Shown: positions 5,092 to 32,850 of the stretch, in pieces
Numbering within the stretch: the stretch's first letter is position 1
How the letters are laid out: each line of letters begins with the position of its first letter
Assembly (NCBI GenBank): GCA_945965395.1
Contig: CAMFND010000090.1
Coordinates: 1 to 33,267, forward strand
DNA length: 33,267 nt
Direction of reading: 5' to 3'
From: an uncultured Bacteroides sp.
GTDB taxonomy: Bacteria; Bacteroidota; Bacteroidia; Bacteroidales; Bacteroidaceae
Translations under genes and position numbers: made by a program
Notes under the pieces: model-generated
What the model was told of the DNA's origin: nothing
What the model saw: only the letters and a program-made list of their open reading frames with translations
The model's database searches: none

Positions 5092-5871
5092 TTATCCTTC
5101 GTTTTTTAGCATTTCCAACAGTTTGTCGATAGCTTTTTCTGCATTTTCTTCTTCTTCGAGCAAGGTCACGAACTTGCTCCCGATGATGCATCCAGAGGCG
5201 TATGCCGCTGCCGATTCGTAAGTGGATTTATTGGAGATTCCGAACCCGATCATCCGTGGATTTCGCAACTGCATTTGCTTGATACGCTGGAAGTAAGCCT
5301 GCTTTTGTGCATTGAATTCCTTTTGTGCTCCCGTCACGGCCGCAGAAGATACCATATAGATGAATCCGTCGGTATGCGCATCGATTTGCCGGATGCGTTC
5401 TTCGCTGGTTTCCGGTGTGATGAGCATAATCACGTGGATGCCGTATTGTTGTGCAATGGGGCGATAGCTTTCCAGGTAATCCTTATAAGGAAGGTCGGGA
5501 ATAATCACGCCGTCGATGCCGCATGCCTGACATTGCCGGCAGAAATTCTCGAAACCATACTGCATGATGGGGTTCAGGTAGCCCATCAGCACCAGCGGGA
5601 TGCGGACATCTGTGCGGATTTGCTCCAGCTGGCCGAAGAGTCTGCGGAGCGTCATGCCGTTGCGCAGGGCCTGTGTGGCTGCGTGCTGAATGACAGGACC
5701 GTCGGCCATCGGGTCGCTGAACGGGATACCGATTTCAATCATCTGTACTCCTTTCCGCTCTAAGGTGCGGATGACTTCGGCGGTACCTTCCAAAGTTGGG
5801 GTACCTGCACAGAAATAAATGGAAAGCACGTGGTCTTTATGTGTCTGGAATAATTGGTCAATGCGATTCAT
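5092..5871 (-). CDS. trpA: Tryptophan synthase alpha chain
   Basis: A 259-residue TIM-barrel subunit that cleaves indole-3-glycerol phosphate to indole and glyceraldehyde 3-phosphate and passes indole to TrpB. The catalytic acids are visible as Glu46 and Asp57 in MIEIGIPFSDPMADGP, followed by the MGYLNP and GFGIS segments typical of TrpA. The frame is open further upstream, but the added residues are unlike TrpA and would overlap trpF, so ATG 5871 (MNRIDQLF) is chosen; this leaves 13 bases after the trpF stop. It is the last gene of the trp operon, far from trpB, which is first. Confidence 0.96.
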   Translation of the reverse strand: MNRIDQLFQTHKDHVLSIYFCAGTPTLEGTAEVIRTLERKGVQMIEIGIPFSDPMADGPVIQHAATQALRNGMTLRRLFGQLEQIRTDVRIPLVLMGYLNPIMQYGFENFCRQCQACGIDGVIIPDLPYKDYLESYRPIAQQYGIHVIMLITPETSEERIRQIDAHTDGFIYMVSSAAVTGAQKEFNAQKQAYFQRIKQMQLRNPRMIGFGISNKSTYESAAAYASGCIIGSKFVTLLEEEENAEKAIDKLLEMLKNEG

Positions 5872-5884
5872 ATCAGTAAGTTTT

Positions 5885-6508
5885 TTAGAGGTTGTACTTG
5901 TTTTGTTTGAAAGAGTCAATAAAGTCAGAGAGGGCAGCCGCATCTTTCAGGCCGGGAGCCTGTTCAAAGCCGCTGTTCAGGTCGATGCCGGCCCAGCGGG
6001 GATGGCTGAATTTCAGTAACGCATCCAGGCTTTCAGGCTTCAGCCCTCCGCTTAACAGGAAAGGCGTCTCGCCGTGGTAGTGCGTCAGCATTTCCCAGTC
6101 GAAGCTTTTGCCGGAGCCTCCGAATCCGTTGCAGGGAGTGTCGAACAGAAAATAGTCGCAGCAGGCGGCATAGCTTTCCGTTGCCAGCAGGTCGTCAGGC
6201 GTACGCAGGGCGAAGGCCTTGATGACGCGTAGGCCGGTCTGTTGCACTTCCCGGCAAAACTCCGGCGATTCCTTTCCGTGGAGCTGGACGAAATTCAGTT
6301 GCCATGCTGTCCTCCTTTCCCGGATTCGCGGAAGGGAAGCATTGACAAACACCCCCACTTTCTGCACCGACTCCGGCAGGTATTCCGGTACGCCCGGTAC
6401 ATAGCGGGGAGAACCTTCGTAGTCGATGAATCCCATCCAGTCGGCCCCTGTTTGCTCCACCTGACGGATGTTCTCCGCCTCCCTCATGCCGCACACTTTG
6501 ACAATCAT
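5885..6508 (-). CDS. trpF: Phosphoribosylanthranilate isomerase
   Basis: A 207-residue enzyme that converts N-(5-phosphoribosyl)anthranilate to the carboxyphenylamino-deoxyribulose phosphate (Amadori rearrangement). The N-terminal KVCGMR motif carries the conserved general-base Cys (residue 6). The C-terminal WAGIDLNSGFE holds the conserved acid, and LLSGGLKPE is part of the phosphate site. The start ATG overlaps the trpC stop as ATGA (6508-6505), which indicates translational coupling. trpF is a separate gene here, unlike the trpC-trpF fusion of E. coli. Confidence 0.96.
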   Translation of the reverse strand: MIVKVCGMREAENIRQVEQTGADWMGFIDYEGSPRYVPGVPEYLPESVQKVGVFVNASLPRIRERRTAWQLNFVQLHGKESPEFCREVQQTGLRVIKAFALRTPDDLLATESYAACCDYFLFDTPCNGFGGSGKSFDWEMLTHYHGETPFLLSGGLKPESLDALLKFSHPRWAGIDLNSGFEQAPGLKDAAALSDFIDSFKQNKYNL

Positions 6509-7293
6509 AAGGCAAGAGCTTGAAGAAAGTCCGACAAAGCCTTTTCCGGTGAAGGCGTTTTCATGAAAGTTTCTCCCATCAGGAATCCCCTGAAACCGGC
6601 TTCACGCAGTTGTATGAATGTGTCGGGTTGCGAGATGCCGCTTTCGGATACCCACAGCAGTTCTTTCGGCAACTTCCGGGCCAGGCGGAACGAATTCTCC
6701 ACATCCGTATGAAACGTGCCTAAGTTCCGGTTGTTGACTCCAATCAGGTCTACATGCTCGTGCAGGTAGTCGAGTTCCTTTTCTGTGTGTATCTCCAGCA
6801 GGACTTCCATCTCTAACTGGTGGGCCAATTTTCCCAAGGCTTTACATTCGTCCACGGTCAGGGCGGCTGCAATCAGAAGCACCACATCCGCACCGGCCAG
6901 CTTGGCTTGATATAACTGGTAGGGACTGACGATAAAATCTTTTCGCAGCACCGGAAGGTGTATCAGCGGGCGGACGGCCTGCAAATCTTTCAGGTTGCCG
7001 CCAAAGAATTTTGGGTCGGTCAGTACGGAGATGCCGGAGGCACCTGCACGCTCATAGCCGGGGACGATGACGGTCGGGTCTGCCTGTGGAGCAATCCATC
7101 CTTTCGATGGGGAGCGTCGTTTGAATTCCGCAATGATGCCCGAGGGCGATGCAGCCAGTGCCTGCTTCAGGCTTTTCGACGGACGGGGAGTACCCAACTG
7201 CTGGATGAGGAAGTCTTGAGATACAGCTTCTTCCTGAAGGGCAATTTCTGTGCGCTTATGAGCCACAATGGTTTGTAAGATATCAGTAGTCAT
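6505..7293 (-). CDS. trpC: Indole-3-glycerol phosphate synthase
   Basis: A 262-residue TIM-barrel enzyme forming indole-3-glycerol phosphate by decarboxylating ring closure. Family motifs are all present: IIAEFKRRSPSKG (Glu56, Lys58, residues 53-65), VLRKDFI, LEIHTEKEL, GVNNRNL, VSESGI and GFLMGE. The open frame extends upstream to 7380 within trpD, but the homologous protein starts at ATG 7293 (MTTDILQTIV), 7 bases after the trpD stop. It overlaps trpF by 4 bases. Confidence 0.96.
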   Translation of the reverse strand: MTTDILQTIVAHKRTEIALQEEAVSQDFLIQQLGTPRPSKSLKQALAASPSGIIAEFKRRSPSKGWIAPQADPTVIVPGYERAGASGISVLTDPKFFGGNLKDLQAVRPLIHLPVLRKDFIVSPYQLYQAKLAGADVVLLIAAALTVDECKALGKLAHQLEMEVLLEIHTEKELDYLHEHVDLIGVNNRNLGTFHTDVENSFRLARKLPKELLWVSESGISQPDTFIQLREAGFRGFLMGETFMKTPSPEKALSDFLQALAL

Positions 7294-7300
7294 CGTTCGT

Positions 7301-8296
7301 TTATTGGTTAAGGGTAAGGAACTTGCGTAGAGTGGCCAGGGCTTTTCCGCTTTCGAGCGATTCTTTGGCCAATGCCACACATTCTTCTATTTTCTTCTGA
7401 GGCTCCAGTGCCTGGATGGCAAACGAGGCATTGATCAGCACACAGTCGGTCTGTGCCTTGCTGCCTTCATTGTGCAGCACCCGGTCGAAAATGGCGGCTG
7501 CCTCTTCCGGGGTGTTTCCTCCGTAAAGCTCTTCCTGGTGTGCCATGGAAAAACCTAATTCCGAAGGACGATAGATGGTTTCGTAACGGTTGGTCATCAC
7601 CTTGAATTCGTCGGTCAGTGAGATTTCATCGTATCCGTCCAGGTTGTTGACCACGGCAAACTGGATGCCGAGCTGCTGGAGTGTGTTGGTGTAAAGCCGC
7701 ATCTGTGGGAGGTCGGCCACTCCTAACAACTGGCAGGCCGGATGGCAGGGATTGACCAGCGGACCTAATAAATTAAATAAGGTACGTACTCCTAATGCCT
7801 TCCGTACGGGAGCCACGGTTTTTAGGGCTGGATGGAAGAGGGGAGCGTGCAGATAAGCCATGCCGCATTGTTCGATGGAACGTTTCAACTTGTCCGCGTC
7901 GTTTGTGAATTTTACTCCGTAGCGTTCCATCACGTTGCTGGCCCCGCTCACCGAAGTAGCTCCGTAGTTTCCGTGCTTGGCTACCCGGTAACCGGCTCCG
8001 GCCACGACAAAGCAGGCACATGTGGAGATGTTGAAGGTGTTTTTCCCGTCTCCTCCGGTACCCACGATGTCAATGGGATGAAATTCATGCAAGTCGATGG
8101 GCACGCAAGCTTGAAGCAGGGCATCGCGGAAGCCGACCAGCTCGTCCACTTTGACCCCGCGCATCTGGAAGGCGGCAAGCAGGGCGGCTGTCTGTGCTTC
8201 ATTCATCTCACCACCGGTCATTCTCTGCATCAGCGTGCAGGCTTCTTCGCGTGTCAGCTCTTCGTGGTGGAATATCCGTTTCAGTATTTGTTTCAT
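7301..8296 (-). CDS. trpD: Anthranilate phosphoribosyltransferase
   Basis: A 331-residue enzyme transferring the phosphoribosyl group of PRPP to anthranilate. It shows the PRPP/Mg loop GTGGDG (residues 79-84), the NIST segment, and KHGN (107-110) followed by a SGASNV glycine/serine-rich loop, all diagnostic of TrpD. It stands alone and is not fused to TrpG as in E. coli. The 42-base gap before it (after trpG) is the longest inside the operon; no hairpin was seen there. Confidence 0.96.
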   Translation of the reverse strand: MKQILKRIFHHEELTREEACTLMQRMTGGEMNEAQTAALLAAFQMRGVKVDELVGFRDALLQACVPIDLHEFHPIDIVGTGGDGKNTFNISTCACFVVAGAGYRVAKHGNYGATSVSGASNVMERYGVKFTNDADKLKRSIEQCGMAYLHAPLFHPALKTVAPVRKALGVRTLFNLLGPLVNPCHPACQLLGVADLPQMRLYTNTLQQLGIQFAVVNNLDGYDEISLTDEFKVMTNRYETIYRPSELGFSMAHQEELYGGNTPEEAAAIFDRVLHNEGSKAQTDCVLINASFAIQALEPQKKIEECVALAKESLESGKALATLRKFLTLNQ

Positions 8297-8338: not shown

Positions 8339-8905
8339 TTATTGATGGTGTATCCAGTTGCCCAGCATCTGTTTTCCTTCGGGAGTGAGAACAGATTCCG
8401 GATGAAACTGCACGCCTCGCACATCGAGTGTGCGGTGGCGGAGTGCCATGATGTATCCTTCTTCACTTACAGCGGTTACCTCCAGGCAATCCGGGAAATC
8501 TTTTTGGTCGACTACCCAGGAATGGTATCTTCCTACCTGTACGGTAGAGGGAAGTCCTTCGAACAGATAGTCCTTCACGGTCAGACTGACGGGACTTTGT
8601 ATGCCGTGGAACACCTCATCCAGGTTGGTCAGTTTTCCTCCGTACACTTCGCCGATGGCCTGTTCGCCCAGGCAGACTCCCAATATCGGTTTCTTTCCGG
8701 CATACCTGCGGATGACATCCAGCAGCAGGCCGGCTTCTTCCGGAACGCCGGGACCGGGCGACAGCAGAATCTTGTCGAATTCCTCCAGCTCCTCCAGCCG
8801 GAACTGGTTGTTGCGTTTCACGGTGACTTCTGCTCCTAACTCCTTGAGCAGGTGACTCAGGTTGTACACAAATGAGTCGTAGTTATCGATGATGACAATT
8901 TTCAT
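8339..8905 (-). CDS. trpG: Anthranilate synthase component II (glutamine amidotransferase)
   Basis: A 188-residue class I glutamine amidotransferase that supplies ammonia to TrpE. The catalytic triad is present: Cys78 in GVCLGEQ, and His168 and Glu170 in VQFHPES. The oxyanion motif LSPGPGVPEEAG and the HSWVV segment fit the TrpG/PabA group. The residue after CLG is Glu81, where many homologues have His (CLGHQ); this is not a catalytic position. It starts 6 bases after the trpE stop. A shared role with PabB in folate synthesis cannot be excluded, but the context is tryptophan. Confidence 0.95.
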   Translation of the reverse strand: MKIVIIDNYDSFVYNLSHLLKELGAEVTVKRNNQFRLEELEEFDKILLSPGPGVPEEAGLLLDVIRRYAGKKPILGVCLGEQAIGEVYGGKLTNLDEVFHGIQSPVSLTVKDYLFEGLPSTVQVGRYHSWVVDQKDFPDCLEVTAVSEEGYIMALRHRTLDVRGVQFHPESVLTPEGKQMLGNWIHHQ

Positions 8906-8911
8906 GGTGTG

Positions 8912-10312
8912 TTATATTTTTTCGGCCAGGAGAATGGCTTTTTTCAATGCTCCCAACTTGTTGTTTACTTCTTGCAGTTCATTGTTCTCGTCACTTTTGG
9001 CTACGATGCCCCCTCCGGCTTGAAACCAGAGCTCGTTGTTACGGCTTACGAAGGTGCGGATGGTGATGGCCTGGTTCAAATCGCCGTTCAGTCCGATGAA
9101 GCCGATGCAACCTCCGTAAGCCCCCCGGTTGTGCGGCTCGATTTCACTGATGAGCTGCATGGCTTTTACTTTGGGAGCTCCGCTGAGGGTACCGGCCGGA
9201 AAGGTGTCAATGAATGTTTTAATCGGGTCGGCTTCCTTGTCCAGTGTGCCGCTTACCCTGCTCACTAAGTGAATCACATGGCTGTAGTATTGCGGCTGTT
9301 TGTAGAACTCCACGTGTGTGTCGTGGCAATTCCGGCTCAAGTCATTCCGTGCCAGGTCCACCAGCATCACATGTTCGGCATTCTCCTTCGGGTCGGCCAG
9401 CAGGGCTTCGGTCAGTGCGGCATCCGTCTTTTTGTCTCCACTTCTGCGGGTGGTGCCGGCAATGGGGTCGATGGTGGCTTTTCCCGCTTCAATCTTGCAA
9501 TGCGTTTCGGGAGAGGAGCCGAAAATCCGGAAACCGCCGAAATCAAAATAGAACAGGTAGGGTGAAGGATTGATGCTTCTCAACGCCCGGTAGAGGGTGA
9601 AATCATCGCCTTCATAGCGCTGGATGAAACGGCGGGAAAGCACAATCTGAAACACGTCGCCTCTCTTGCAGTGGGCAATGCCCTTGCGGATATTGGCCTT
9701 GTGCTCCTCGTCGGTCAGCGTACTGGTGGTGTCGCCCGTCGTCCGAAAGGCGTAGGTGGTGTAGTTGCGGTTCAGTACCGCCTTCTCCACTTCGTCAATG
9801 TAGCTCGGCTCGTCGTTGCCCTGCAGCTCCACCAGCACCATCTCGCTCTGGAAGTCGTTGAACACAATCAGGTACTTGTAGAGAATGTAGAGAATCTCCG
9901 GCGCATCGTTCTTCGGGGCGCTGCTGTCTTTCACCGGAATCTGTTCGAAATAGCGGACGGCATTGAACGTGGTGTAGCCGTACACTCCTCCGTAGCGGGC
10001 ATATTCTCCTTCCACCTGAAACTGTCTCAGGAAATACTGAAAAGCATCTTCCACCTGGAAATCGGGAGTGAGCGGACGCTCTTCACGGCTTTTGTCCGGA
10101 AAGACCGTGGTCACGATTCCGTGGTTCACGGAGAAACTGGCAATGGGATTCAGTCCGATAAAAGAGCGGTTGTTTTCCACTCCGTGGTAATCGGAACTTT
10201 CCAGCAGAATACTTTGCGGAAACAGGTCGCGCACCTTCAGGTACGTGCTCACGGGCGTATGCAAGTCGCCGGGCAGCGTTTTGTAGCGGGTGGTATAAGC
10301 AAATTTCTTCAT
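8912..10312 (-). CDS. trpE: Anthranilate synthase component I
   Basis: A 466-residue chorismate-utilising enzyme that makes anthranilate from chorismate with TrpG-derived ammonia. The N-terminal domain keeps the LLES element (residues 36-39) and RSFIG, which form the tryptophan feedback site in characterised TrpE proteins, so allosteric inhibition by Trp is likely. The C-terminal catalytic domain has the IAGTTRRSGD variant of the IAGTRPRG motif, ENAEHVMLVDLARND, FPAGTLSGAPK, GGCIGFIG and GGGIVAKSD. It begins 12 bases after the trpB stop. Confidence 0.96.
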   Translation of the reverse strand: MKKFAYTTRYKTLPGDLHTPVSTYLKVRDLFPQSILLESSDYHGVENNRSFIGLNPIASFSVNHGIVTTVFPDKSREERPLTPDFQVEDAFQYFLRQFQVEGEYARYGGVYGYTTFNAVRYFEQIPVKDSSAPKNDAPEILYILYKYLIVFNDFQSEMVLVELQGNDEPSYIDEVEKAVLNRNYTTYAFRTTGDTTSTLTDEEHKANIRKGIAHCKRGDVFQIVLSRRFIQRYEGDDFTLYRALRSINPSPYLFYFDFGGFRIFGSSPETHCKIEAGKATIDPIAGTTRRSGDKKTDAALTEALLADPKENAEHVMLVDLARNDLSRNCHDTHVEFYKQPQYYSHVIHLVSRVSGTLDKEADPIKTFIDTFPAGTLSGAPKVKAMQLISEIEPHNRGAYGGCIGFIGLNGDLNQAITIRTFVSRNNELWFQAGGGIVAKSDENNELQEVNNKLGALKKAILLAEKI

Positions 10313-10324
10313 GTTTTTTCTCGT

Positions 10325-11521
10325 TTAAAAAATTTCAGGGTTGTTTTTGTATTTCAGATAAGTGTCAATGTCTTTGTCGCCTCTTCCCGACACGGTCAGC
10401 ACCACGATGTCCGAGGGCTGGAACTTCACTTTCTTCAGAGCCCCTAAGGCATGGGCCGATTCCAGTGCCGGAATGATGCCCTCCAGCCGTGTCAGTTCGA
10501 AGGCAGCCCGCAGGGCTTCGTCGTCGTTAACAGCCAGCACGGTGGCTCTTTTCTGTGCGGCTAAGTTGGCATGCATGGGACCGATGCCGGGGTAATCCAG
10601 TCCGGCCGAAACGGAGTACGGTTCCAGAATCTGTCCGTCTTCATCCTGCATGACCAGGGTTTTAGAACCATGAATGATGCCCAGCCGGCCCAGCTGGATG
10701 GTAGCGGCCGACAATCCCGTTTCCACTCCCTTTCCTCCGGCTTCCGCTAAGATGATTTTCACCCGTTCATCGTCCAGGTAGTGATAGATGGTTCCGGCGG
10801 CATTGCTTCCTCCTCCCACACAGGCCATCAGGTAGTCCGGATAGTCACGTCCTTCGTGTTCCATCAGTTGCTTTTTGATTTCCTTGCTGATGACCGACTG
10901 CAAGCGGGCTACCATGTCGGGGTAGGGATGAGGCCCCACCGTGGAACCAATCACATAGTACGTATCCGCCGGGTGGCAGCACCAGTCGCGTATGGCTTCG
11001 TTCGTGGCATCCTTCAGGGTCATGTTGCCCGAAGTCACGGCTTCCACCCTGGCCCCTAACATCTGCATGCGTTCCACGTTTACCCGCTGCCGTTCCACGT
11101 CGGTCTTTCCCATGTAGACCACACATTCCATTCCCATCAGGGCGCATACCGTAGCCGTGGCTACTCCGTGTTGTCCGGCTCCTGTTTCGGCGATGATGCG
11201 TTTCTTGCCCATTCTCCGGGCCAGAAGCACCTGGCCGATGGCGTTGTTGATTTTGTGCGCTCCCGTATGGTTCAGGTCCTCCCGTTTCAGGTAAATCTTG
11301 CATCCGTATTTTTCCGACAAGCGTGGGGCAAGGTAAAGTGGTGAAGGACGTCCTACGTAGTCCTTGAGCAACGCATCGTATTCTTTCTGGAATCCTTCGT
11401 CTGCCAGCACCTTGCGGTAGGCATTGCGTAATTCTTCCACACAGCGATGGAGAATTTCCGGTATGTAGGCTCCACCAAAATCTCCATAAAATCCTTCCTG
11501 GTTTACTTGATAAGTTTTCAT
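10325..11521 (-). CDS. trpB: Tryptophan synthase beta chain
   Basis: A 398-residue PLP enzyme condensing indole with L-serine. The PLP-binding lysine is Lys90 in TGAHKINNA, and the catalytic Glu lies in [10 protein letters not shown]. The phosphate-binding glycine-rich loop GGGSNA and the C-terminal [12 protein letters not shown] segment are intact. An upstream in-frame ATG at 11539 would add six residues, but MKTYQVNQ at 11521 fits the family start. It is the first structural gene of the operon, directly after the attenuator. Heading the operon with trpB, far from trpA, is the gene order typical of Bacteroidetes. Confidence 0.96.
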
Positions 11522-11545
11522 GAGTGTACTTGTTTGCATTAGGGT

Positions 11546-11586
11546 GAAAAAACAAAAAGGGCCGTCGTAAAGTTACGACAGCCCTT
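11546..11586 (-). terminator. trp attenuator terminator hairpin
   Basis: On the minus strand AAGGGCTGTCGTAA pairs with TTACGACGGCCCTT (positions 11586-11557, one T-G wobble, tight loop) and is followed by TTTTTGTTTTTT. This strong intrinsic terminator stands between the leader peptide gene and trpB, 25 bases before the trpB start. It is therefore a regulated terminator, not the end of a gene. Confidence 0.85.
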
Positions 11587-11631
11587 CTGTGATACTATTA
11601 CTATTGAGGTATATACATGCGACTGAGTTCC

Positions 11632-11654
11632 CTTACGACCTTTGGAGTTGTAAG
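11632..11654 (-). promoter_or_regulatory. trp leader hairpin competing with the terminator
   Basis: CTTACAAC (11654-11647) pairs with GTCGTAAG (11639-11632) around a 7-base loop with one mismatch. This overlaps the end of the leader ORF, whose stop TAA lies inside GTCGTAA. The same GTCGTAA sequence is the 5' arm of the terminator, so this copy can instead pair with the terminator 3' arm TTACGAC (GTCGTAAGG against CTTTACGAC). That gives mutually exclusive structures, as expected for ribosome-mediated attenuation. Confidence 0.6.
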
Positions 11655-11695
11655 CGGCGCCACCAGAAGAATGTATTTACCGTAGAAAGATTCAT
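11633..11695 (-). CDS. trpL: trp leader peptide (20 residues, tandem Trp)
   Basis: ATG 11695 opens 20 codons ending at TAA 11633, 112 bases upstream of trpB. The peptide contains FFWWRR: two consecutive TGG codons at residues 11-12, in a 20-residue ORF where Trp would be rare by chance. It lies between the consensus promoter and a terminator hairpin followed by trpB. The likely role is sensing charged tRNA-Trp: a ribosome stalled at the Trp codons would hold the CTTACAAC arm and free the competing arm. There is no visible Shine-Dalgarno sequence, as usual in this phylum. Confidence 0.85.
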   Translation of the reverse strand: MNLSTVNTFFWWRRLQLQRS

Positions 11696-11731
11696 AATGT
11701 TATTTTTCTTGTTTTTTTATTGTTTCACTCG

Positions 11732-11766
11732 CAAAGGTAACCATTAATATGAAAACGCCAAACAAA
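11732..11766 (-). promoter_or_regulatory. trp operon promoter (Bacteroidetes sigma-70 consensus)
   Basis: The minus strand has TTTG at 11762-11759 (a second TTTG at 11766-11763) and a perfect TACCTTTG -7 box at 11739-11732, separated by 19 bases. Transcription should start near 11725, giving a leader of about 30 bases before trpL. It faces away from the alkD-like gene across a short shared region. No obvious operator palindrome was seen, consistent with control by attenuation. Confidence 0.7.
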
Positions 11767-11832: not shown

Positions 11833-12543
11833 ATGGAAGAGTTTCGACTGGACGGTCTGACCGTCAAAGAACATCTGCTGATACTGGCGGAAGAGGGAAA
11901 CCGCAAGTTTACCGAGGGGCTTCACCCGGGGGTGGAACATGTGTTGGGCATTCGTTTGCCGGCGTTGCGGAAACTGGCTGCAAGGATTGCCAAGGCAGAC
12001 TGGGAGCGCTACTTTGACACAGCCGACGGGTTCTACATGGAAGAACGTATGCTGCAAGGTATGGTGTTGGGATGTATCCGTCCTGACGAGGACGTGGAAG
12101 TCTATCTTCACCGTGTGACACGTTTTGTGTGGATTATCAACAGCTGGTCGGTGTGCGATACGTTTAAGTTTGGAGGAGGAAAAGCTTTTATCCGCCGTAA
12201 CGAGGTGCGGCTTTGGGAATACCTGAAAGAATGGATGAAGGCATCGGGCGAGTATGAGGTACGTTTCGGCGTGGTGATGGGAATGAGCTATTTCCTGGAT
12301 GAAGCCCACCTGGAGGAGTATCTTTCCCTGCTCGACGGGATTCGTCATGAGGGATATTATGTGCGCATGGCTGTGGCCTGGGCACTTTCATTCTGTTTTG
12401 TCAAGTTTCCGGAACAGACCATGGTTTTTCTGCGTCATTGTCATCTGGACGATTTTACTTTCCGTAAGACCATTCAGAAAATCGGTGAGTCCTACCGTGT
12501 GAGTGAAGACATGAAAAAGGCTGTCAGGGCATTGAAGCGCTGA
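11833..12543 (+). CDS. AlkD-like DNA alkylation repair protein
   Basis: A 236-residue all-helical protein of the DNA_alkylation (AlkD/AlkC HEAT-like repeat) family. These are DNA glycosylases that remove bulky or positively charged alkylated bases such as 3- and 7-methylpurines. The segment INSWSVCDTF places Trp105 and Asp109 where characterised AlkD has its key Trp and Asp, and the spacing agrees. The N-terminal PALRKLAARIAK region also fits. It is monocistronic, divergent from the trp operon and convergent with prmA copy 1. A terminator hairpin overlaps its last codons. Confidence 0.88.
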   Translation: MEEFRLDGLTVKEHLLILAEEGNRKFTEGLHPGVEHVLGIRLPALRKLAARIAKADWERYFDTADGFYMEERMLQGMVLGCIRPDEDVEVYLHRVTRFVWIINSWSVCDTFKFGGGKAFIRRNEVRLWEYLKEWMKASGEYEVRFGVVMGMSYFLDEAHLEEYLSLLDGIRHEGYYVRMAVAWALSFCFVKFPEQTMVFLRHCHLDDFTFRKTIQKIGESYRVSEDMKKAVRALKR

Positions 12544-30759: not shown

Positions 30760-32850
30760 TTATTTCAACTTTGTTACATGATATAGGGTACCTCTGGTAC
30801 TGGTCTTTTTAGGAATGTTCAGTTTGCGGAGAATACGTCCAAACCAATTTATTTTATTGATAGACAGTTTGTCGCGTGTGTTCTCTTGAAGATAATTAAA
30901 AATATCCATGGCAGTCATCCATTCTCCCTCCTTTTCGTTGGTTGCAGAAGAAAAGTTACAATGGAATAAATGCTCCAAAGGTGATATTTGCTCAAATTCG
31001 CTGTTGCTTTGTCGTAAAACGGCCTCATCTTCGTCATTCAGCCAATAACGTTCGTTCTTATAAAGTAAATGCATGGCTTGCGCATAGAGTTGGCGGTAGT
31101 CTATGGTGACATTGGTATCAATGGGATCGGTCACTTCGATACAGATAAAGCGACGGCTTCCCGTGGGGTCGGTGAGCAAATCCTTCTGATTGCTGGTGCC
31201 GATGAATGAGGCATAGCGGCGTAATTCGCGCACGCTGGTTCCGTAAGGCTTGCGCAGATTGGCTGTCGGTTTTTGTAGCAGATGTTTCAGAAAGCCTTGT
31301 TGATTTACGGTAATCTGGTCGAATTCGTCCAGGTTGATAAGGAAAAATCGTCCCAAGGCACGCTCCGCTTCCTGTTTGCTGCTGAAGTCCAGGCTGTCGG
31401 CATAGCCGAAACGGAGTTCGGGTGGCAGCAAGATACGGCAATAAGTGGATTTCCGGAATCCTTGCGAACCTACAAGTAAAGGTGAAGTGCTGTTTCCATG
31501 CTGGCGGTCCATCCCCCTCCAATGCGCCACCATGCCTAGAAACCAACGGTAAAAGAGCTCTTCCCAATGCGGATTGCCGCAAGGAACGAGCCGGGCAAGT
31601 GCGCGGATGCGGTCAGTACCGTCCCAGCGGGGAAGGTCACACAAGTATTCTTCTACAGGATTGTAAAGCGGAACGAAATCGGAGGTGAGAAAGCGGTCTA
31701 TATCCCGGTCCCACACTTGCAGCCCTTCTTTTAAGGCGCAGAGGGCGATACTGTTGCGGGTACGTTTATCTAAAGGCTTGAAATAGAAATGAACAGAGTC
31801 CCGTTGACGGTATTCCACCTCGTCCAGCACGGTGTTGAAGCGGAATTCATACCGTCTTTTCAAGAATTCCTCCAGCCGGAAGGTGGCTTCCTGCTCTTTA
31901 CTGAAACCGCTTTTTTTACCGAAACCTTTCATTTCCCGGTATCCGTTGCCAAAAGCTGTACGGATGGTTTCTGTGTCCGTTGCGTGAAAATAGTGCATCA
32001 GCGTGCGCTGTACGGCTTCCTCTTCGGGGATGCCTGTTTTGAAGCATTGTTCTACCAGATGGGGCAGTAAAGGTTCCAGCCCGTCATCACGTTTCCAGTT
32101 TTCCATCTCGGCCAATGCTCTTTTCCGTGCCGACTGGTACATCTGGGCAAAAATCTGCATACTTTCGCAGCCGGGTGTCATTCGTTCCGGTGCGCTTTCG
32201 CTGTTTTGTTTCCGTTGCCGGAAAGTTTCCTCATCGGGCAGGGCAAGCGGTTGCTCTATGCAGAAAGGAACGGACGAAGGGTTATAGTAAGGTTGTTCAT
32301 CCACGGTCATGCGACAGCTTTGCATCAGGTTCGGTTCCTTCAGTGTGATGCCGAAAGGAAGCATGGGCTGGTAGCATGTCACCGCCAGCCGATAGGCGTG
32401 GGCATGAAACAGGAGGACTTCTTGTGTGGCAGTGGGCAAGCTGCCGTCAGTGCGTGCGAAGCGTATCCATATCTTTACGCTCCGTCCGCTTGAACCGCAG
32501 AAAGCGGCAAAGGTTTGTGGCAGTTGCTCTACTTGGCGTTTCACATATTCCACCTCATACAGGTCGGCGAGCCGGTTCACTTCCAGCTGCACCAGTCCGT
32601 TGTAATGTTTCATACGTTTCTCACCCTTTTGTTTGCGGGTATATTCTACGGCAGGATAGACACGCGGCAGTTTGTCGATGTGGACGTAGCGGGCGGACGA
32701 TCCTGCCAGCCGGGGTAGTATTTCACGCAGTTCCGATATATGCCCTGCTTTGTTCTCTGTCTTTACTTTCTCGAAGAATGCGTCCGTATCGCATAGTGAC
32801 AAGGCTTCTGTCCCCTGTTCTTCATCTTTCCTGATGAGTGTAATTTTCAT
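30760..32850 (-). CDS. BT4734/VirE-type P-loop protein (VapE-like, DUF3874 C-terminus)
   Basis: A 696-residue protein with three parts. Residues about 45-205 (ARYVHIDKLPRVYPAVEYTRKQKG ... PYYNPSSVPFCIEQP) resemble the BT4734-like/VirE N-terminal primase-type domain. Residues about 390-590 form a VirE/VapE-type P-loop domain with Walker A GSQGFRKST (461-469), Walker B FFLINLDEFD (Asp508, Glu509) and a sensor-like FIGTSNQ. The C-terminus (EWMTAMDIFNYLQ...FGRILRKLNIPKK...YHV) resembles DUF3874. Relatives occur in many copies in Bacteroides, often near mobile or polysaccharide loci and small DNA-binding protein genes. Primase-helicase-like activity is plausible but unproved. Its promoter region is unusually rich in repeats. 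Confidence 0.88.
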   Translation of the reverse strand: MKITLIRKDEEQGTEALSLCDTDAFFEKVKTENKAGHISELREILPRLAGSSARYVHIDKLPRVYPAVEYTRKQKGEKRMKHYNGLVQLEVNRLADLYEVEYVKRQVEQLPQTFAAFCGSSGRSVKIWIRFARTDGSLPTATQEVLLFHAHAYRLAVTCYQPMLPFGITLKEPNLMQSCRMTVDEQPYYNPSSVPFCIEQPLALPDEETFRQRKQNSESAPERMTPGCESMQIFAQMYQSARKRALAEMENWKRDDGLEPLLPHLVEQCFKTGIPEEEAVQRTLMHYFHATDTETIRTAFGNGYREMKGFGKKSGFSKEQEATFRLEEFLKRRYEFRFNTVLDEVEYRQRDSVHFYFKPLDKRTRNSIALCALKEGLQVWDRDIDRFLTSDFVPLYNPVEEYLCDLPRWDGTDRIRALARLVPCGNPHWEELFYRWFLGMVAHWRGMDRQHGNSTSPLLVGSQGFRKSTYCRILLPPELRFGYADSLDFSSKQEAERALGRFFLINLDEFDQITVNQQGFLKHLLQKPTANLRKPYGTSVRELRRYASFIGTSNQKDLLTDPTGSRRFICIEVTDPIDTNVTIDYRQLYAQAMHLLYKNERYWLNDEDEAVLRQSNSEFEQISPLEHLFHCNFSSATNEKEGEWMTAMDIFNYLQENTRDKLSINKINWFGRILRKLNIPKKTSTRGTLYHVTKLK

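Follow-up and report, generated by a model that had tools for sequence, protein, structure and literature searches.

The trp operon and its leader

The window, that is, the whole 33,267-nt stretch analysed, carries on its minus strand a tryptophan biosynthesis operon with the gene order trpB, trpE, trpG, trpD, trpC, trpF, trpA (trpBEGDCFA) downstream of a leader region (Table 1). The closest named TrpB was that of Phocaeicola plebeius (99%). The mechanical ORF call places the trpB start at 11539, which is doubtful because a related locus (L057) has no ATG at the matching position; this start is probably too early, and the gene probably begins with MKTYQVNQ at 11521. If so, the terminator lies exactly 25 bases before trpB, as had been stated in an initial annotation of this DNA. 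Divergent from the leader is a DNA_alkylation (PF08713) gene (11833-12543, plus strand), whose ORF starts less than 100 bases from the promoter boxes. Another protein encoded in the window (30760-32850, minus strand) combines BT4734-like N-terminal, VapE-like and DUF3874 domains.

Table 1. Features of the trp leader and operon in the window
Feature	Position	Strand	Basis or remark
trp leader, whole element	11762-11547	-	promoter, ORF, long imperfect hairpin, terminator, then trpB
Possible -33 box TTTG	11759..11762	-	sequence; 19 nt from -7 box
Bacteroides-type -7 box TACCTTTG (TAnnTTTG)	11732..11739	-	sequence and relatives
Leader ORF, 20 codons, MNLSTVNTFFWWRRLQLQRS	11633..11695	-	sequence
Tandem Trp codons TGG TGG	11660..11665	-	inside leader ORF
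Long protector hairpin, 5' arm GGTAAATACAT	11671..11681	-	Rfam alignment, fold
Strand 1 CTTACAAC, pairing partner of 2a	11647..11654	-	fold
Strand 2a GTCGTAAGG, with leader stop codon TAA (11635-11633) inside	11631..11639	-	sequence, covariation
Strand 2b CAGTC; partner, lower terminator 5' arm GGCTG (11583-11579)	11621..11625	-	
Long protector hairpin, 3' arm ATGTATATACC	11608..11618	-	Rfam alignment, fold
Terminator 5' arm (strand 3)	11574..11588	-	
Target of 2a, CTTTACGAC (terminator loop and top of 3' arm)	11564..11572	-	
Terminator 3' arm (strand 4)	11555..11569	-	
T tract TTTTTGTTTTTT	11547..11558	-	sequence
trpB, first gene of operon	10325..11521	-	TIGR00263, 584.9 bits
trpE	8912..10312	-	best model TIGR00564, score under its cut-off
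trpG	8339..8905	-	TIGR00566
trpD	7301..8296	-	TIGR01245
trpC, start uncertain	6505..7380	-	NF001377
trpF	5885..6508	-	best model NF002298, score under its cut-off
trpA, start uncertain	5092..5943	-	TIGR00262

The initial annotation had described a consensus promoter, a 20-codon ORF with two adjacent TGG codons, an imperfect hairpin over the end of this ORF and a terminator with a T tail. The ORF and its tandem Trp codons are present as described. As to the promoter, a Bacteroides-type -7 box was found, whereas a sigma-70 promoter scan of the leader gave no match. This box follows the Bacteroides-type consensus TAnnTTTG, and TTTG is a possible accompanying -33 box. Among 76 related leaders, 72 had TAnnTTTG no more than 75 nt 5' of the ATG, compared with 44 of 1580 mononucleotide shuffles. 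The hairpin corresponds to a long protector hairpin, whose 5' arm lies upstream of the Trp codons and whose 3' arm lies downstream of the stop codon; for the 186-nt leader, the predicted folding energy was -50.2 kcal/mol, whereas shuffles averaged -33.5 (z -4.5; 0/200 as good). The intrinsic terminator (11588-11555, minus strand) has 15 pairs and a 4-nt loop, with T's as far as 11547, and stands before the first gene of the operon. The sequence GTCGTAA, said to be common to an arm of the early hairpin and the terminator 5' arm, was located at both places on the minus strand: at 11639-11633, where it includes the stop codon TAA, and at 11579-11573.

The leader matched the Rfam family RF01692 (Bacteroid-trp) over the full model (1-131) with 52.4 bits (gathering cut-off, 49), directly upstream of a tryptophan biosynthesis gene (trpB) in a member of Bacteroidota; the family and the window are alike in leader, protector hairpin and position before trp genes. 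Thus, the element itself is already known, and the earlier reading, which had left it unnamed, is corrected in this respect. As aligned here, the RF01692 model has pairs for the protector hairpin only and stops inside the terminator 5' arm; it contains neither terminator nor antiterminator. Of 295 genomes of the order, 27 had a match, 16 of them above the cut-off; of 399 genomes of the family, 93 had one, 74 of them above the cut-off. RF01692 alone reached its cut-off in the window, where the T-box covariance model had no match; matches to L20_leader and ctRNA_p42d were far under their cut-offs, mainly reflected the terminator and were rejected. In T-box leaders, tRNA charging decides between terminator and antiterminator; the window leader differs in that its sensor is a translated peptide.

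Bacteroid-trp was listed by Weinberg et al. 2010 as 'RNA? y, cis-reg? y, switch? n' in Bacteroidetes, and in the main text of that paper it is named once, in a table row (PMC2864571). One later paper places it before the Flavobacterium psychrophilum trp operon and compares it with the E. coli leader. We found no description of a trp antiterminator in Bacteroidota that pairs strand 2 with strand 4 or captures the loop in the literature searched, which included the available parts of PMC2864571 (without supplements), PMC6414381 and PMC2965389 and extended to sources other than subscription journals.

Evidence for pairing of strand 2a with the terminator loop and 3' arm

Two sets of leaders were compared. 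The first was drawn from the window, 80 named trpB loci and 55 Rfam-hit loci (L002-L056). No row was obtained for L108 and L134, which have no leader, for L117, which has an N run, or for L013, whose contig ends inside the terminator. The remaining 132 leaders comprised 125 different ones. A TrpB tree was available for 120 of these leaders, with L016, L023, L025, L026 and L027 left off (no TrpB match), and it served for a phylogeny-aware null in which one strand was re-evolved with an equal number of changes on random branches; the row of L116 was re-anchored by hand for this purpose. An alignment (A1) held 68 of 90 listed leaders. L109, L123 and L131 were left out of the folding figures for the terminator, the thinning by identity, the duplex-side comparison and the loop/stem count.

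The later set was gathered after the hypothesis had been formed, by searching the class and the order with a model that was built from A1 and specifies terminator pairs only. Its 92 loci (L137-L228) gave 66 new leaders, 7 loci without a leader usable under the position rules applied (L167 being the L009 locus again) and, by subtraction, 19 repeats. The first downstream trp gene was trpE in 32, trpB in 30, trpD in 3 and trpC in 1 of the 66. Pairing in this set was assessed without anchoring, the leader from the Trp codons on being matched against the loop plus six 3'-arm bases. The search model includes the sequence of these regions and therefore favours similar leaders; such a bias alone cannot make own pairs beat exchanged ones. 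The class-wide search hit 278 of 395 genomes, which we rejected as a count of attenuators or a prevalence figure, as we did the order search, because four of 30 loci taken from it (L161, L163, L165 and L166) have no TGG-TGG close to the matched region. These four look like bare terminators.

Leaders of both sets were chosen for TGG TGG or close variants, so its presence there is no evidence of conservation. Among the 80 loci found by TrpB, however, 77 had a leader with Trp codons, and 73 had TGGTGG; two had no leader and one was an N run. Together with the arm complementarity and its compensatory changes described below, this count bears out the conservation that the initial annotation had proposed to look for in relatives. 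In L122, L124 and L125, Trp-Arg-Trp replaces the tandem Trp, and the frame is shifted at 2a, where GTCGTAAG is nonetheless retained. The strict 2a motif was present in 67 trpB-locus leaders and absent from nine others. It coincided with the stop codon in 51 of the 67, the frame being shifted in the remaining 16. Two of the nine lacking it (L074 and L075) combine a shifted frame with GUCGUAGA, a sequence in which all 8 positions remain paired. That the 2a sequence is so often preserved without serving as the stop codon suggests a constraint at the RNA level.

In the 125 distinct leaders, 2a is mostly GUCGURAG, and its partner, mostly CUYRCGRY, spans the terminator loop and the uppermost bases of the 3' arm. 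Pairing was complete (8 positions) in 74 leaders and extended to 7 positions in 31, to 6 in 18 and to fewer in 2, so that 51 fell short of full pairing. The clearest covariation was seen at position 6 of 2a, which is the central base of the stop triplet and formed A:U with its partner in 82 leaders, G:C in 26 and G.U in 6. An A.A mismatch was kept by 10 leaders, L016 and nine whose loop reads ACCAA, and T.C was seen once, in the mis-anchored row of L116. In 102 of 122 usable hairpins, including all 25 usable G:C cases, the partner of position 6 is an unpaired loop base. In the other 20, including the window, it is part of the upper terminator stem, and therefore strand 3 could explain the tracking there. 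In A1, 2a was paired with strand 4 in 95.1% of cells (91.8% in shuffles), with AU 38, GC 23, GU 6 and other 1 for the tracking pair, and strand-4 columns 157 and 156 paired with 2a in 68/68 and 68/68 leaders and with strand 3 in 63 and 61.

Duplex energies pointed in the same direction. For 2a with strand 4 in the first set, none of 500 shuffles was as good as the own pairs, and no re-evolved set was as good in either direction (0/200 both ways), a result equal to that of the positive control, the lower stem of the terminator (0/200). Among the other pairings, 2a with strand 3 (493/500 shuffles as good), strand 1 with strand 4 (214/500) and 2b with strand 4 (92/500) were unsupported; under the phylogeny-aware null, the corresponding figures were 161/200 for 2a with lower strand 3, 14/200 (borderline) for 2b with strand 4 and 31/200 for strand 1 with strand 4. 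On the TrpB tree, the tracking base and its partner changed 7 and 9 times, with about two independent pairs in the same direction, none in the opposite direction and about two without difference, and these changes are therefore too few for a sign test on the tracking base.

For the loop and 3' arm, the later set agreed with the first. Own pairs of leader with loop and 3' arm averaged -10.29 kcal/mol against -8.37 for exchanged ones (0/1000 shuffles as good, z -8.8), and the 17 leaders outside the order gave 0/1000 with z -3.7; the shuffles of this set make no correction for relatedness. In 46 of the 66 leaders, part of the duplex fell on the stop codon. When the 188 usable leaders of both sets were thinned to less than 75% leader identity, 70 remained and none of 2000 shuffles was as good; at less than 65% (12 leaders) the result was again 0/2000, and at less than 58% (5 leaders) it was 77/2000. 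Complementarity was also retained in leaders in which the letters have wholly changed, namely L224 (GUUGCCGCU:AGCGGCGAC), L159 (CGCUGUGA:UCACAGCG), L210 (UCGGGAG:CUCCCGA) and L200 (GUCGUGAAU:AUUCACGAC). Comparison of these sequences supports a pairing of strand 2 with strand 4 in which loop bases take part.

The terminator 5' arm and alternative readings

By the textbook rule, the antiterminator takes the 5' arm of the terminator because this arm is made first. We compared the two sides of the terminator by duplex energy. In the window, the leader paired with the 5' arm at -7.1, with the 5' arm plus loop at -8.6 and with the loop plus 3' arm at -11.6 kcal/mol. The E. coli trpL leader (NC_000913.3) resembles that of the window in its tandem Trp codons, its terminator and the similar size of its ORF, but there the 5' arm (-10.9) beats the loop plus 3' arm (-4.9 kcal/mol). 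The genome of the window also has leaders before hisG and leuA which, like the trp leader, combine a peptide rich in the respective amino acid with a terminator. The his leader (L235, 897-1034 of contig C82, with the His-codon peptide MILNTVHHRHHHYLTVHTVG) and the leu leader (L236, 2873-3018 of contig C48, with the Leu-rich peptide MNNLFLHILLCGLINLLESPVGSESCAY) had no Rfam hit. The corresponding energies were -13.8, -18.8 and -6.3 for his, a classical layout, and -8.4, -18.6 and -8.3 for leu, in which the sides are equal for the 5' arm alone and the layout is classical if the loop goes with the 5' arm. Thus, within one and the same cell, the layout of the trp leader is opposite to that of his and, if the loop is counted, to that of leu.

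The 5' arm is nevertheless the natural partner if this is an ordinary attenuator of the E. coli type, with strand 2 pairing with strand 3 and the complementarity of 2a to strand 4 a by-product of the likeness between 2a and strand 3. We regard this as unlikely, though it has points in its favour. Strand 2b is complementary to the lower 5' arm (CAGUC:GGCUG), and in the first set its own pairs beat shuffled (0/500 as good) and re-evolved ones (1/200 either way). Own pairs of the leader with the 5' arm plus loop are also weakly favoured over shuffled ones (5/1000 as good with n=188; 32/1000 with n=66), and in the window the tracking base sits in the terminator stem. The covarying bases are, however, unpaired in the terminator in most leaders, as noted above, and changes in strand 4 still pair with 2a where strand 3 fails. 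A test of the first set found no pairing between 2a and the terminator 5' arm, and the whole leader gave no own-pair signal with the 5' arm alone, either in the 66 later leaders (446/1000) or in the thinned 70 (1053/2000); a helix between 2b and lower strand 3 is therefore unsupported in the later set. Strand 1 with strand 3 was rejected as poorly paired (68% of cells). Strand 1 with 2a was paired in 80.7% of cells, and its own pairs exceeded shuffled ones (0/500 as good), with no significance under the phylogeny-aware null (38/200). A different reading leaves the terminator intact and adds a pseudoknot between 2a and the loop, which would tune termination or ribosome release and not prevent the terminator from forming. 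Most leaders outside the order fit this reading, their complementarity lying largely within a 4-6 nt loop (for example AAUCAC in L146, L148 and L155), so that pairing would leave the stem mostly intact. In Bacteroidales, however, the helix includes about five 3'-arm bases and so excludes the top of the stem, and the stop codon within 2a fits masking by the ribosome; we consider the pseudoknot improbable. Least probable of all, and very much so, is an old duplication of one hairpin, with strands 1 and 2 copied as 3 and 4 and no switch. It would account for the resemblance of strand 1 CUUACAAC to CUUUACGAC of the loop and strand 4, and for the identity of 2a with the top of strand 3, but the pairing survives wholly changed sequences in distant lineages, whereas relics would drift apart.

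The two sides of the terminator need not be exclusive. The signal for the 5' arm plus loop, together with a 2b helix supported in the first set only, leads us to read the antiterminator of the window's clade as two nested helices, with 2a and the loop and strand 4 outside and 2b and lower strand 3 inside. The loop plus 3' arm was the stronger side in 112 of 188 leaders and weaker or equal in 76. Of nine leaders considered individually, eight preferred the 5' arm plus loop (L153, L164, L205, L226, L228, L186, L160 and L016), with a large margin in L153, L164 and a few others, the window being the exception; some distant lineages look classical in layout. We think that lineages differ in how much the 2a and 2b helices each contribute. 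The initial annotation had proposed that strand 2 displaces strand 3 and pairs with strand 4. Its pairing agrees with the covariation, to which the loop bases have to be added; as to the displacement, the 2b helix supported in the first set means that strand 3 need not simply be displaced.

Folding, timing and the proposed switch

Equilibrium folding of truncated RNAs was carried out for 123 leaders (L016 and L116 left out). With a stalled ribosome and the transcript extended to the end of the ACGAC core, the predicted probability of 2a pairing with strand 4 averaged 0.89 and exceeded 0.5 in 114/123. On further lengthening it was 0.83 two bases on, then 0.35 and 0.05, and fell to 0.01; in the longest transcript it exceeded 0.5 in 1/123, and the terminator was predicted to win. 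For the window leader, the predicted change from the antiterminator to the terminator fell between 9 and 11 bases after the core begins. With 2a masked, the terminator was predicted at a mean probability of 0.90 at core+7, two bases beyond the end of the core, and 0.94 at full length (n=120). Since the terminator is predicted to prevail as soon as the lower 3' arm has emerged, the model depends on kinetics. The last dozen or so bases of a nascent RNA are hidden within RNA polymerase, so the lower 3' arm would still be inside while the T tract is being crossed, which in this model gives 2a its chance.

Sequence comparison establishes the parts of the leader, their conservation and the covariation of 2a with the loop and strand 4. 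The window has a leader ORF with Trp codons (WW in 20 codons) and an intrinsic terminator before the first gene, and an antiterminator that excludes the terminator is supported, computationally, by this covariation and the predicted folds. We therefore favour with some confidence, as the likely reading, a trp-operon attenuator of the RF01692 family that acts on transcription, depends on leader translation and forms its antiterminator with the terminator loop and 3' arm. From this arrangement we infer ribosome stalling, the direction of its effect, the timing and the response to tryptophan. When charged tRNA-Trp is ample, the ribosome would reach the stop codon and cover 2a, strands 3 and 4 would pair, and polymerase would stop before trpB. 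When it is scarce, the ribosome would stall on TGG TGG and open the long protector hairpin; the freed 2a would capture the loop of the terminator and the upper 3' arm on their exit from polymerase, 2b would, in the window's clade, occupy the lower 5' arm, and the terminator would be held open while polymerase passes across the T tract. If the leader is not translated, 2a would stay hidden by the protector hairpin, and termination would follow.

It also appears probable, with somewhat less assurance, that these leaders represent a mirror-image class of attenuators conserved in Bacteroidales and in further orders of Bacteroidia. In such a class, the antiterminator would capture the loop and the 3' arm as they leave polymerase, with the loop as a toehold and the stop codon usually in the capturing strand; it would coexist with classical his and leu attenuators, and some lineages would have switched layouts. 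If true, antitermination would have a second solution in conserved capture of the loop and 3' arm, with the contest being decided over the few bases that precede exit of the lower 3' arm from polymerase. It would supply a mechanism for an Rfam family whose model has none, in major human gut bacteria, and model builders who seek only 5'-arm antiterminators would overlook such switches.

One genome (G1101) has, on a single contig, separate Trp leaders before trpE, trpC and trpB (L191, L194 and L196), each with its own match between 2a and the loop.
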